NCBI RefSeq assembly: GCF_000425365.1
Contig: NZ_AUDH01000004.1
Span: 1 to 64,000, forward strand
Length of the DNA: 64,000 nucleotides
Direction of reading: 5' to 3'
Source: Rubritepida flocculans DSM 14296
GTDB taxonomy: Bacteria; Pseudomonadota; Alphaproteobacteria; Acetobacterales; Acetobacteraceae
The notes beneath the pieces were generated by a model. The model saw nothing but the letters and a program-made list of their open reading frames with translations, was not told the origin of the DNA and did not search any database. Of the stretch, positions 73 to 56,284 are shown in pieces. Both the position numbers and the translations under genes were made by a program. How positions within the stretch are numbered: the first letter of the stretch is position 1; each line of letters begins with the position of its first letter.

Positions 73-312
73 GCGTGAGGGCGATGGTGGCGTGATGGCG
101 TACCGGTCGAACCCGGGGCCAGGCAGAACCCGTTTAGAGTCTCGCGCCCCCGAGCGCGCGAAACTGATTGGGAGCCAGGCCGCGGATTGCATCAGGGCCA
201 GCGGCCATGAGCCGCGCAGACAGGCCGGACACATGACCGCACCCGACCGCGGCGCCGATCGTCAAATCGCCCTTGCGTCGAAGGGGCCGTCCACACAAGC
301 CTCTAAGCCGGA

Positions 313-413
313 CGTATCTCGCACGCCGGGTTGGTGGGCGGCGGCGTGCCAAAACAAAGATATACCAGCGGCCGCGCGCAGCTTCAGCGGTCAAAGCAAG
401 CGGCCGCTGGTAT
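313..413 (-). repeat. Palindromic repeat family, copy D (degraded)
   Basis: Arms ATACCAGCGGCCGC (362-375) and GCGGCCGCTGGTAT (400-413) are perfect inverted repeats around a 24-base centre that is itself partly self-complementary. Read on the minus strand, the box is followed by a TTTGTTTTGGCACGCCGCC stretch and then by a decayed half of the family's GATACGGTCGGCATG palindrome near 313-323. Orientation matches the copy at 7381-7506. The additional hairpin seen in the copies at 5386 and 55702 is absent. It sits upstream of the lipoprotein gene. Confidence 0.8.
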
Positions 414-511
414 GAATCGGGGCGGCGGCGCGCGGCGTTTGCCGCCATGCACAGCCCGCGATAGAAACCAAAAGCTTGCCGGGCGATGACGAGCCCCGCA
501 CGAGAAGGAAC

Positions 512-5381: not shown

Positions 5382-5385
5382 CCTT

Positions 5386-5581
5386 ATACCAGCGGCCGCT
5401 GATTTCGACTCCTGAGGAGCCGGTGCGGCCGCTGGTATGCCTTTGTTTTGGCGCGCAGCCGCCACACCGGGTCCCATCGAAGCAAAGCTTCGATGGGGGC
5501 CCGTCAACCCTGCGCGCGATACGGTCGGCATGTCATGCCGACCGTATCACATACGCGTGGCATGCCATGCCGCCCGTCTCG
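5386..5581 (+). repeat. Palindromic repeat family, copy A (left of ettA)
   Basis: Three self-complementary blocks occur in order. Box: ATACCAGCGGCCGC (5386-5399) against GCGGCCGCTGGTAT (5425-5438), with an inner CTCCTGAGGAG. Middle hairpin: CCCATCGAAGC (5473-5483) against GCTTCGATGGG (5487-5497), with an AAA loop. End palindrome: GATACGGTCGGCATG, one T, then its exact complement (5518-5548). A second, decayed copy of the end palindrome follows at about 5551-5581. Copy B on the other side of ettA is nearly identical in inverted orientation but lacks the middle hairpin. Confidence 0.93.
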
Positions 5582-5702: not shown

Positions 5703-7382
5703 ATGCCCGCCTGGCAGTATGTTTATGTGATGAAGAACCTCACCAAGTCCTACCCGGGCGGGCGTGAGGTGTTCAAAGGCATCACGCTCTCCTTCCTGCC
5801 GGATGCGAAGATCGGCGTGCTCGGCCCGAACGGCGCGGGGAAGTCCACGCTGATGCGAATCATGGCCGGGCGGGATCAGGATTTCGGCGGCGAGGCCTGG
5901 GCGGCCGAGGGCGCGCGCGTGGGCTATCTCGAGCAGGAGCCGCAGCTCGACCCGACCAAGACCGTGGGCGAGAACGTGCGCGCGGCCTTCACCGAGCTCG
6001 AGGCGCAGCTCAAGCGCTTCAACGAGATCAGCGAGAAATTCGCCGAGGAGATGAGCGAGGAGGAGATGAACGCCCTCCTCGCCGAACAGGGCCAGCTCCA
6101 GGAGAAGATCGACGCCGCCGATGGCTGGGAGCTCGATCGGCGCATCGACATCGCGCTCGATGCGCTGCGCTGCCCGCCGGCCGACAGCCCCGTGACCAAC
6201 CTCTCGGGCGGGGAGCGCCGGCGCGTCGCCCTCTGCCGCCTGCTGCTCGAGAAGCCCGACCTTCTGCTGCTCGACGAGCCGACGAACCATCTGGACGCGG
6301 AGAGCGTCGCCTGGCTCGAGAAGACGCTGCGCGACTACCCGGGCGCGGTGCTCGTCGTCACCCACGACCGCTACTTCCTCGACAACGTGACCAACTGGAT
6401 CCTCGAGGTGGACCGCGGCCGGGGCTACCCCTACCAGGGCAACTACTCCGCCTATCTCGAGCAGAAGCGCAAGCGCCTTGAGCAGGAGAACCGCGAGGAG
6501 CAGGCGCGAATCCGCGCCCTGGCGGCCGAGCAGGAGTGGATCGGGCGCAGCCCCTCCGCCCGCCAGGCGAAGAACAAGGCGCGCATCCAGCGCTACGAGG
6601 AGCTGCTGGAGAAGAGCCAGGAGCGCGGGCCCGGCGAGCTCGAAATCCTCATCTCGCCGCCGCCGCGCCTCGGCAACACCGTCATCGAGGCCGAGGGGCT
6701 GCGCAAGGGCTACGGCAACCGGCTGCTGATCGACGACCTCTCCTTCAAGCTGCCGCCCGGCGGCATCGTGGGCGTGATCGGCCCCAACGGCGCGGGCAAG
6801 ACCACGCTGTTCCGCATGATCACCGGCCAGGAGAAGCCCGACGCCGGCACGCTGCGCATCGGCGAGACGGTCAGCCTCGGCTATGTGGACCAGTCGCGCG
6901 ACAGCCTGGACGACAAGAAGACCGTCTGGGAGGAGATTTCCGGCGGCGACGACGTGATCAACATCGGCAAGCGGCAGATCCCCTCGCGCGCCTACACGGC
7001 CGCCTTCAACTTCCGCGGCGCGGACCAGCAGAAGCGCGTGGGCGTGCTCTCGGGCGGCGAGCGCAACCGCGTGCACCTCGCGAAGATGCTGCGCGTGCCG
7101 CACAACGTGCTGCTGCTCGACGAGCCGACCAACGACCTCGACGTGGACACGCTGCGCGCGCTCGAGGAGGCGCTGATGGAGTTCGCGGGCTGCGTCGTGG
7201 TGATCAGCCACGACCGCTGGTTCCTCGACCGCCTCGCCACGCACATCCTCGCCTTCGAGGGCGATTCCCACGTCGAGTGGTTCGAGGGGAACTTCCAGGC
7301 CTATGAGGAGGACAAGCGGCGCCGGCTCGGCAAGGACGCGACCGAGCCGCACCGCATCAAGTACCGCCCGCTGGTGCGCTGA
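5703..7382 (+). CDS. ettA: Energy-dependent translational throttle protein EttA (ABC-F ATPase)
   Basis: A 559-residue soluble tandem ABC ATPase without membrane segments, which binds the ribosomal E site and gates translation according to ATP/ADP level. Domain 1 has Walker A GPNGAGKS (41-48), LSGGE (167-171) and DEPTNHLD (191-198). The EttA-type arm lies about 95-140 and the P-site tRNA interaction linker about 240-325. Domain 2 has Walker A at 360-367 and a second DEPTNDLD. Length and the MPAWQYVYVM start match EttA (about 555 residues). The gene lies between two inverted repeat copies, and its TGA overlaps the right one. Confidence 0.95.
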   Translation: MPAWQYVYVMKNLTKSYPGGREVFKGITLSFLPDAKIGVLGPNGAGKSTLMRIMAGRDQDFGGEAWAAEGARVGYLEQEPQLDPTKTVGENVRAAFTELEAQLKRFNEISEKFAEEMSEEEMNALLAEQGQLQEKIDAADGWELDRRIDIALDALRCPPADSPVTNLSGGERRRVALCRLLLEKPDLLLLDEPTNHLDAESVAWLEKTLRDYPGAVLVVTHDRYFLDNVTNWILEVDRGRGYPYQGNYSAYLEQKRKRLEQENREEQARIRALAAEQEWIGRSPSARQAKNKARIQRYEELLEKSQERGPGELEILISPPPRLGNTVIEAEGLRKGYGNRLLIDDLSFKLPPGGIVGVIGPNGAGKTTLFRMITGQEKPDAGTLRIGETVSLGYVDQSRDSLDDKKTVWEEISGGDDVINIGKRQIPSRAYTAAFNFRGADQQKRVGVLSGGERNRVHLAKMLRVPHNVLLLDEPTNDLDVDTLRALEEALMEFAGCVVVISHDRWFLDRLATHILAFEGDSHVEWFEGNFQAYEEDKRRRLGKDATEPHRIKYRPLVR

Positions 7383-7506
7383 CACGGTCGGCATGACATG
7401 CCGACCGTATCGCGCGCAGGGTTGGTGTGGCGGCTGCGCGCCAAAACAGGGACATACCAGCGGCCGCACCGGCTCCTCAGGAGTCGAAATCAGCGGCCGC
7501 TGGTAT
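7381..7506 (-). repeat. Palindromic repeat family, copy B (right of ettA)
   Basis: Inverted relative to copy A. The end palindrome GACACGGTCGGCATG-A-CATGCCGACCGTATC (7381-7411) begins inside the ettA stop codon (TGA at 7380-7382); the single arm mismatch is the C next to that codon. A TGTGGCGGCTGCGCGCCAAAAC spacer follows, then the box ATACCAGCGGCCGC (7454-7467) and GCGGCCGCTGGTAT (7493-7506) around CTCCTCAGGAG. The 37-base middle hairpin block of copy A is cleanly missing, so the CCACACC and AACCCTGCGCGCG flanks are joined directly. Confidence 0.93.
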
Positions 7507-7533
7507 GAGGCGCGCGCGCCCCGCCCCCTGGCC

Positions 7534-55701: not shown

Positions 55702-55862
55702 ATACCAGCGGCCGCTTGCTTCGACTCGTGAGCAAGCGGCGCACCGGCTGGCATGCCCTTGCTTCGGCACGCCGCCACCCCACCGGGCCGCAACGCGGCG
55801 CGCCGCGTCGGGGGGTGGCAACCCGGCATGCGCGCGAGGCCCGGCCATGCGGCCGGCCGGAT
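55702..55862 (+). repeat. Palindromic repeat family, copy C
   Basis: The box keeps the left arm ATACCAGCGGCCGC (55702-55715) and an inner hairpin GCTTGCT/AGCAAGC, with a degraded right arm ending GGCTGGCAT (55754). A middle hairpin ACGCGGCG/CGCCGCGT (55793-55808) lies at the same place as in copy A but with different sequence. A GC-rich version of the end palindrome runs to about 55862, where it touches the stop codon of the minus-strand gene. Located between convergent genes. Confidence 0.85.
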
Positions 55863-56284
55863 CAGGGGCAGGAAATCCGCGTCGCTTCCGCGAGGCGCTG
55901 CGGTGTCAGCGGCGGCCGGCCGGGCTGGCGCGGATGGTAGCCGAGCGGCAGCACCATCCGCCCATGGCCGGGCAGCGTCACGCGCTGACCCATGGGCCGG
56001 CCCAGCGCATCGCCCGCCATCATCACGATCAGGTTCTGCGGCGTGCCGCGCGTGTTGCGCAGATGGGCGCTGTAGTGCGAACGACCCTGCGCGCCCGGCG
56101 TGCCCAGCACCACGAAGCGCTCCACCACCACCCGGCCGGCGCAATAGACCTGGGCTTCGGCGCGCGCGTTCGACGGCCATGCGAGGAGGGGAAGCAGCGC
56201 GAGAAGAACGCGGCGAAGGACGGCGCCCGCCCACGCGGGTGGTGGGCACGACAGGGATTGAACCTGTGACCCCCACCGTGTCAA
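55862..56284 (-). CDS. Exported protein of unknown function, start codon uncertain
   Basis: A signal-peptide-like stretch (RRVLLALLPLLAWPSNARA) leads to about 95 residues with two Cys (VYCAGR, RISC at the very end) and no recognised domain. The only in-frame start codon upstream of the signal is TTG 56284, inside the tRNA-Val gene; no ATG or GTG is in frame between tRNA and signal sequence. So either an unusual start is used or the gene is decayed. The stop overlaps repeat copy C. Confidence 0.5.
   Translation of the reverse strand: MTRWGSQVQSLSCPPPAWAGAVLRRVLLALLPLLAWPSNARAEAQVYCAGRVVVERFVVLGTPGAQGRSHYSAHLRNTRGTPQNLIVMMAGDALGRPMGQRVTLPGHGRMVLPLGYHPRQPGRPPLTPQRLAEATRISCP

Follow-up and report, generated by a model that had tools for sequence, protein, structure and literature searches.

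Why would a hairpin inside a genomic repeat change its letters from copy to copy and still pair? The question arises near the left end of the 64,000-nucleotide stretch of Rubritepida flocculans DSM 14296 analyzed here (the window, contig NZ_AUDH01000004.1), where the first-pass annotation had noticed a middle hairpin at 5473-5497 that differs in sequence, and keeps its pairing, between two copies of a repeat, two other copies lacking that block. The repeat is about 120 to 165 bp long, with most copies measured in the source genome at about 125 or 161 to 165 bp, and its modules follow the order H1 hairpin, T-rich tract, H2 (with or without P3) and H4 hairpin. The features in the window are as follows.

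5384..5549, plus strand: copy A, whole, type I with the middle block; flanks TTA (left) and TCA (right), unequal
5386..5438, plus strand: H1 terminal hairpin of copy A, 14-bp outer stem ATACCAGCGGCCGC/GCGGCCGCTGGTAT
5440..5449, plus strand: T-rich tract CCTTTGTTTT, between H1 and H2
5451..5517, plus strand: H2 stem-loop, arms GCGCGCAG (5451-5458) and CTGCGCGC (5510-5517), conserved loop CCGCCACACC..AACC
5469..5505, plus strand: optional middle block of 37 nt inside the H2 loop, delimited by comparing copies with and without it
5473..5497, plus strand: P3, middle hairpin, 11 bp with an AAA loop
5518..5548, plus strand: H4 terminal hairpin GATACGGTCGGCATG/..TGCCGACCGTATC
7380..7508, minus strand: copy B, type I without block; TGA 7380-7382 is both target copy and stop codon
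55700..55864, plus strand: copy C, type II with block; right TCA at 55862-55864
55789..55812, plus strand: P3 of copy C, arms 55789-55799 and 55802-55812, 9/11 pairs
307..415 (ends approximate), minus strand: copy D, type II without block; H4 degenerate

Two main subfamilies occur in the source genome, each both with and without the block. Type I has the H2 arms GCGCGCAG/CTGCGCGC and the block stem CCCATCGAAGC; type II has the H2 arms GCACGCCG/CGGCGTGC and the block stem CCCAACGCGGC. The fold of copy A is far more stable than that of shuffled sequences (z of -11.5 for the minus strand as RNA and -9.8 for the plus strand as DNA). Three loci (L080, L084 and L087) are recombinants that join a type I left half to a type II right half, and their H2 pairing is broken.

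The original description of these hairpins was right for copy A, whose P3 is exact (5473-5483 CCCATCGAAGC, AAA, 5487-5497 GCTTCGATGGG). The stem given for copy C, 55793-55800 ACGCGGCG with 55801-55808 CGCCGCGT, also pairs exactly, but the one homologous to that of copy A is 55789-55799/55802-55812; most type II block copies have the stem CCCAACGCGGC/GCCGCGTTGGG or one close to it. The clean absence of the block from copies B and D (minus strand, 7380-7508 and about 307-415) was confirmed, with the junction ..CCGCCACACC AACCC.. in block-free copies against ..CCGCCACACC[37 nt]AACCC.. in block copies. The statement that the box centres remain self-complementary despite differing letters holds only in part, since among 64 copies many centres are paired but others are mismatched. 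In the TGAT-type centres (n=41), CTCC/GGAG pairs at all four positions in 21 copies, at three in 16 and at fewer in 4, and one inner pair of the TTGC-type centres (n=15) is T-A in 4, A-T in 3, C-G in 3, T-G in 2 and unpaired in 3; 8 more of the 64 copies fit neither type.

The repeat is abundant in its host. Searching the 3.8-Mb genome with ATACCAGCGGCCGC (at most 1 mismatch) gave 134+123 matches, compared with 1+0 for the backward control; one full copy yields two such matches, and the genome holds more than 100 copies. Copies were examined in their surroundings at 92 loci, of which one duplicates window sequence. A listing under a loose rule contained 93 places, at least 2 of which are not true copies, and 29 with unclear or missing ends were omitted from the 64-copy alignment. 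A covariance model of H2+H4, built on no-block copies from the source genome and one congener, matched 81/249 genomes of the family, in 45/102 genera, and a model of H2 with the block matched 10/249 genomes, in 7/102 genera. In a class-wide draw, H2+H4 matched 3/385 genomes, namely the source genome and two weak matches; the draw contained at least 4 other genomes of the family, none of which matched. All of these genome counts are lower bounds, resting on at most 19 (H2+H4), 20 (block) or 12 (class draw) places per genome and on stricter filters. A GTDB pattern scan with the exact H1 hairpin found one other named record, a Roseococcus MAG, and the plasmid collection queried with the element gave no match.

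The modules are kept to different degrees in other genera. The H2 loop GCCGCC..CAACC is conserved, and the T-rich tract is mostly kept, a similar tract being present in most relatives examined. The H1 and H4 sequences differ, with distinct left arms in 25/27 (H1) and 28/30 (H4) genomes. These left arms pair with their own right arms at 0.84 (H1) and 0.86 (H4), versus 0.38 and 0.43 with the right arms of other genomes, in hairpins that had been chosen by a 9-of-12 pairing filter; H2 had been chosen by a 6-of-8 filter. We also collected H2 without a stem filter, by its loop and tract and a G or C at the closing pair, at loci that themselves came from the structure model. Of 78 such places, 58 had 8/8 pairs, 9 had 7 and 1 had 6, and the 10 with lower pairing comprised 6 wrong-register repeats, 3 chance matches and 1 real case (L208).

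Covariation was scored on alignments of 36 no-block copies (A2), 32 block copies (A4), 22 block copies (A5; 16 of them from other genera) and 71 block copies, 67 of them distinct (A6; the source genome and 10 others, that is, G018 plus 9 from the block-model search). The score was 0.267 for A4 compared with 0.116 in shuffled alignments, 0.327 compared with 0.126 for A5 and 0.147 compared with 0.056 for A2, and in each case it was reached by 0/500 shuffles. In A5, 13 pairs were altered on both sides, versus 5.3 in shuffles. Weaker shuffle measures gave 45/500 (A2) and 28/500 (A4) for pairs changed on both sides, and 275/500 (A2) and 58/500 (A4) for further pair types.

As relatedness can mimic covariation, columns were simulated along a FastTree tree. 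Compensatory change in P3, which had been proposed from the window copies, was supported under this null on the 67 distinct block copies of A6, where three P3 pairs among 19 tested pairs were significant at E<0.05 (T-A/A-T, C-G/A-T and A-T/G-C), but not by an all-pairs test on the 22 copies of A5, in which none of the P3 pairs reached significance (best E 0.055). Mean P3 pairing on A6 was 0.967, above the simulated maximum of 0.955 (1000 simulations), and H2 pairing was 0.930 versus 0.919 simulated. For A2, one H2 and two H4 pairs were significant at E<0.05, with H2 pairing at 0.971 versus 0.968 simulated and pairing of the H4 helix, at 0.932, below the simulated maximum of 0.952. When the all-pairs test was applied to 79 distinct cores, one H2 pair exceeded every one of the 200 simulations. 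Because the model itself made the A5 and A6 alignments, both lean toward the structure. Substitution values in type I copies of the source genome were 0.026 for H1, 0.019 for H2, 0.050 for P3 and 0.067 for H4, and substitutions were commoner at unpaired positions (0.123, including the variable H1 centre) than in these stems. The most variable pair of H4 shows the unpaired intermediates C-C or T-C in 9/64 copies. H2, P3, H1 and H4 change their letters while their pairing is kept, and it is very likely that the inner hairpin is homologous among copies and conserved in its pairing.

A clean presence or absence, together with stem letters that differ between the two window copies, could also have come from an unrelated hairpin inserted secondarily into each copy, the alternative that the first-pass annotation had set against its own proposal. 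That explanation failed, because the block is recognized by a single covariance model in 7 genera, where its flanks, GCCGCC..CCGGG and CCCGGCAACCC, are mostly shared, and we give it next to no credence. The P3 stems seen are CCCATCGAAGC, CCCAACGCGGC, CCCGACGCGGC, CCCATCGCAGC, CCCATCGCAAC, CCCGTCGCAGC and CCCGTCGCGGC, with partner arms that match or nearly so. The block is best seen as an old component of the inner module, dispensable and lost in some lineages, and not as a separate insertion in each copy. At one insertion site shared by its flanks between the source genome (L043) and G018 (L034), the H2, H4 and block sequences differ, by replacement, by independent insertion at the same TCA or by fast turnover of the hairpins.

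The annotation had overlooked that the entire repeat is a transposable element. The element mostly starts with TACC and ends with GGTA or CGTA, and TNA flanks it on both sides, nearly always TCA in the source genome. The flanking triplets were equal in 93/116 copies and unequal in 23, copy A (TTA/TCA) included; this count covered 69 source-genome copies and 47/70 cross-genus rows, with L105 and L127 (both TTA/TTA by eye) outside it. Identical flank pairs other than TCA occurred 8 times in the 116 copies, compared with 0.37 when the left sides were shuffled (p<=5e-5); half of the eight came from the relative G105, and one, L157, rests on a re-anchored left end. G105 has 12 copies of 122 bp that are 96.7-100% alike, with flanks TCA/TCA in 5, TTA/TTA in 4, TAA/TAA in 2 and TCA/TCG in 1, and a 13th, which differs by a single change in H4, is flanked by TTA/TTA. 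G140 may likewise hold many alike copies, since its nine listed H2+H4 matches score equally. An empty site, GATCGAC-TTA-AACCG, was found there beside L258, and its filled counterpart in L257 and L262. We are confident that the repeat is a mobile element that duplicates TNA. No autonomous copy sharing H1 was seen in G105, where all 13 H1 ends (at most 2 mismatches) lie in short copies, and none was recognized among the source-genome copies examined.

Copy B sits exactly on the TGA stop of an EttA-type ABC-F gene (5703-7382). A stop codon (TGA, TAG or TAA) was present at the same position in 11/11 relatives examined, of 20 that matched, and the element was absent from that position in all 11. 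The right TCA of copy C (55862-55864) is likewise the stop codon of a predicted minus-strand gene, 55862-56131. The right target is the stop codon of a predicted gene in 53/78 copies of the source genome and in 6/7 of G018; for comparison, 57/156 non-coding TGA/TAA sites of the window are stops. The left target is a stop codon in 1/75 copies, in line with a TCA target. In G105, 1/12 copies scores as abutting a stop (L252), by a codon model trained on the window that possibly missed some. Stop-codon targeting as a general property of the element was rejected, since G105 does not show it.

Other repeats and fragments were seen near copies. Another repeat, about 115 bp long (GTTACCCACCGGCGG..GTTTCTGTCTA), occurs at 30 places in the source genome, several of them near contig ends. 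It starts directly after the TCA of several copies (L132-L137 region), and its last three letters in L132 and L133, CTA, are the TAG stop codon of the adjoining reading frame. L117 has a solo inverted H1 just upstream of a reading frame that we take to resemble the start of an IS3-type orfA.

We propose, with a probability of roughly 0.6, that P3 is the apical hairpin of the inner module of a non-autonomous, MITE-like transposable element that is spread through the family and whose movement depends on its fold. A transposase acting in trans would make a 3-bp staggered cut at TNA and would need the element in its folded form, with the hairpins extruded from duplex or formed in a single-stranded intermediate; it might recognize the folded ends or the core. 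Only copies with intact hairpins would then seed new copies and resident copies would decay, so that source copies would stay paired while their sequence drifts. Selection for pairing in one RNA strand should favor G-U over A-C. The G-U/A-C cells were 15/9 for H2 and 9/8 for P3 on A6, 7/5 for H2 and 6/3 for P3 on A5, 9/7 for H4 and 0/1 for H2 on A2, and 13/15 for H1. The absence of a clear bias favors causes at the DNA level, whether extruded hairpins, a step in single-stranded form or correction by template switching, and a selected transcript explains the data no better than folded DNA or template-switch repair does. Of the original proposal of selection on RNA or single-stranded DNA, the conserved pairing stands, but the RNA part does not gain from G-U and A-C cells that are about equally frequent, which differs from what selection on one RNA strand should produce. 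We put selection on folded DNA, rather than on RNA or mutational correction, at about even odds.

Template-switch correction during replication could perfect imperfect hairpins and leave their arms complementary with no structure being selected. Long perfect hairpins such as these are plausible substrates, and template switching both creates and maintains hairpins, with palindrome correction able to yield compensatory pairs (PMC8794818). The lack of a clear G-U/A-C asymmetry agrees with such a process, as do the pairing-filtered H1 and H4 arms that differ between genomes and still pair best with their own partners. The process fails to explain, however, why the loop and internal-loop letters of H2 are conserved across genera. 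Moreover, isolated pairs often change by way of unpaired or wobble states (C-C, T-C, G-A and T-G at one H4 pair) and resident copies retain mismatches, and we regard this explanation as rather unlikely. An element working as RNA, with a fold selected as a 3'-UTR structure, a terminator or a small RNA, would account for the excess fold energy, for H1 followed by a T-rich tract that looks terminator-like by eye, for the right-end stop codons in excess of the window background and for the G-U cells slightly above A-C on A5. The stop-codon abutment, though, we read as a result of the choice of TCA as target and the loss of harmful insertions and not as a function, and the single G105 copy scored as abutting a stop and the lack of a clear G-U excess on either strand speak against it. 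No Rfam family matches the element: at the gathering threshold, Rfam 15 found three tRNAs and nothing else in the window, and a permissive search with the element and 10 relatives gave sub-threshold matches only. We consider a selected RNA unlikely.

The high copy number and palindromic ends recall REP/BIME-type palindromes moved by a RAYT (Y1 HUH) transposase, as do the mostly extragenic position and the supply of stop codons, which REP ends may provide too (PMC3733652). However, Y1_Tnp (PF01797) had 0 matches in the 99% complete source genome, the control being matched in 5/14 genomes, and no GTAG/CGTC tag is visible by eye at the ends. A 3-bp duplication with agreeing copies is not expected of Y1 single-strand transposition, so that the matching left and right targets speak against it. 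CGTC repeats are, besides, reported missing from Acetobacteraceae (PMC3733652), and an origin of this kind appears very improbable.

Whichever process moves it, the inner module also occurs by itself. H2 with P3 stands alone, with neither H1 nor H4, at L224, L227, L228 and other loci, and the solitary modules of G214, G106 and G068 have long P1 stems of unrelated sequence. In 4/17 block loci of relatives (L224, L227, L229 and L234), H2+P3 lies 10-17 bases past a predicted stop codon. The function of the module need not, therefore, be transposition, and H2+P3 may have a life outside the mobile element. It is possible, if tentative, that H2+P3 is an undescribed structured nucleic-acid module of the family that was also built into a TNA-duplicating element, with fold-dependent, structure-guided transposition by an enzyme yet to be named. 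Read on the minus strand, the H2 loop (5459-5509 in the window, and its counterparts in relatives) is, without the block, GGTTGG-n-GG-C-GG, and four GG runs are found in 46/48 listed loops, one of the 48 being a chance match (L173). Judged from these letters, a two-tier G-quadruplex could be the recognized feature. A viral contig, L266 (200-620), contains an H2 core with neither H1 nor H4 after a stretch that resembles a tRNA 3' end by eye, ..CCACCA TTTTTCTTTGCGCGCAG..; a tRNA at this place was not confirmed, ARAGORN finding 0 tRNA genes in L266.

Going back to the fold-dependent MITE-like element, its closest parallels can be drawn from several known systems. The IS1031 group of the IS5 family makes 3-bp TNA target duplications and is described in acetic acid bacteria; our element resembles it in the target duplication. 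Rhizobial mosaic intergenic repeats of the RIME/ABC type are modular palindromes in an alphaproteobacterial lineage, as here, a likeness by description only. Bacterial MITEs, which include RUP, NEMIS, ERIC and Nezha, share with it a size of 70-300 bp, a high copy number, target duplication, here of 3-bp TNA, and a frequent location at gene ends (PMC3733652). MITEs are further defined by terminal inverted repeats of 15-30 bp, whereas here the ends are two separate hairpins that share, by eye, little beyond TACC/GGTA and partly TACnnnCGGC, and the inner hairpin module is conserved and covaries across genera. The repeat behaves like a MITE, a partner insertion sequence or transposase and shared ends of 15-30 bp not being among the features seen. 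No description of this element was found in the literature, judged on titles and abstract openings.

Descriptions of small repeats usually rest on their sequence, and such repeats tend to be regarded as transposon ends in decay. The family described here retains a structure in dozens of genera even as its letters turn over, so that folded DNA as the substrate of movement can be tested directly, and the two covariance models, R1 and R2, are a means to find the repeat.
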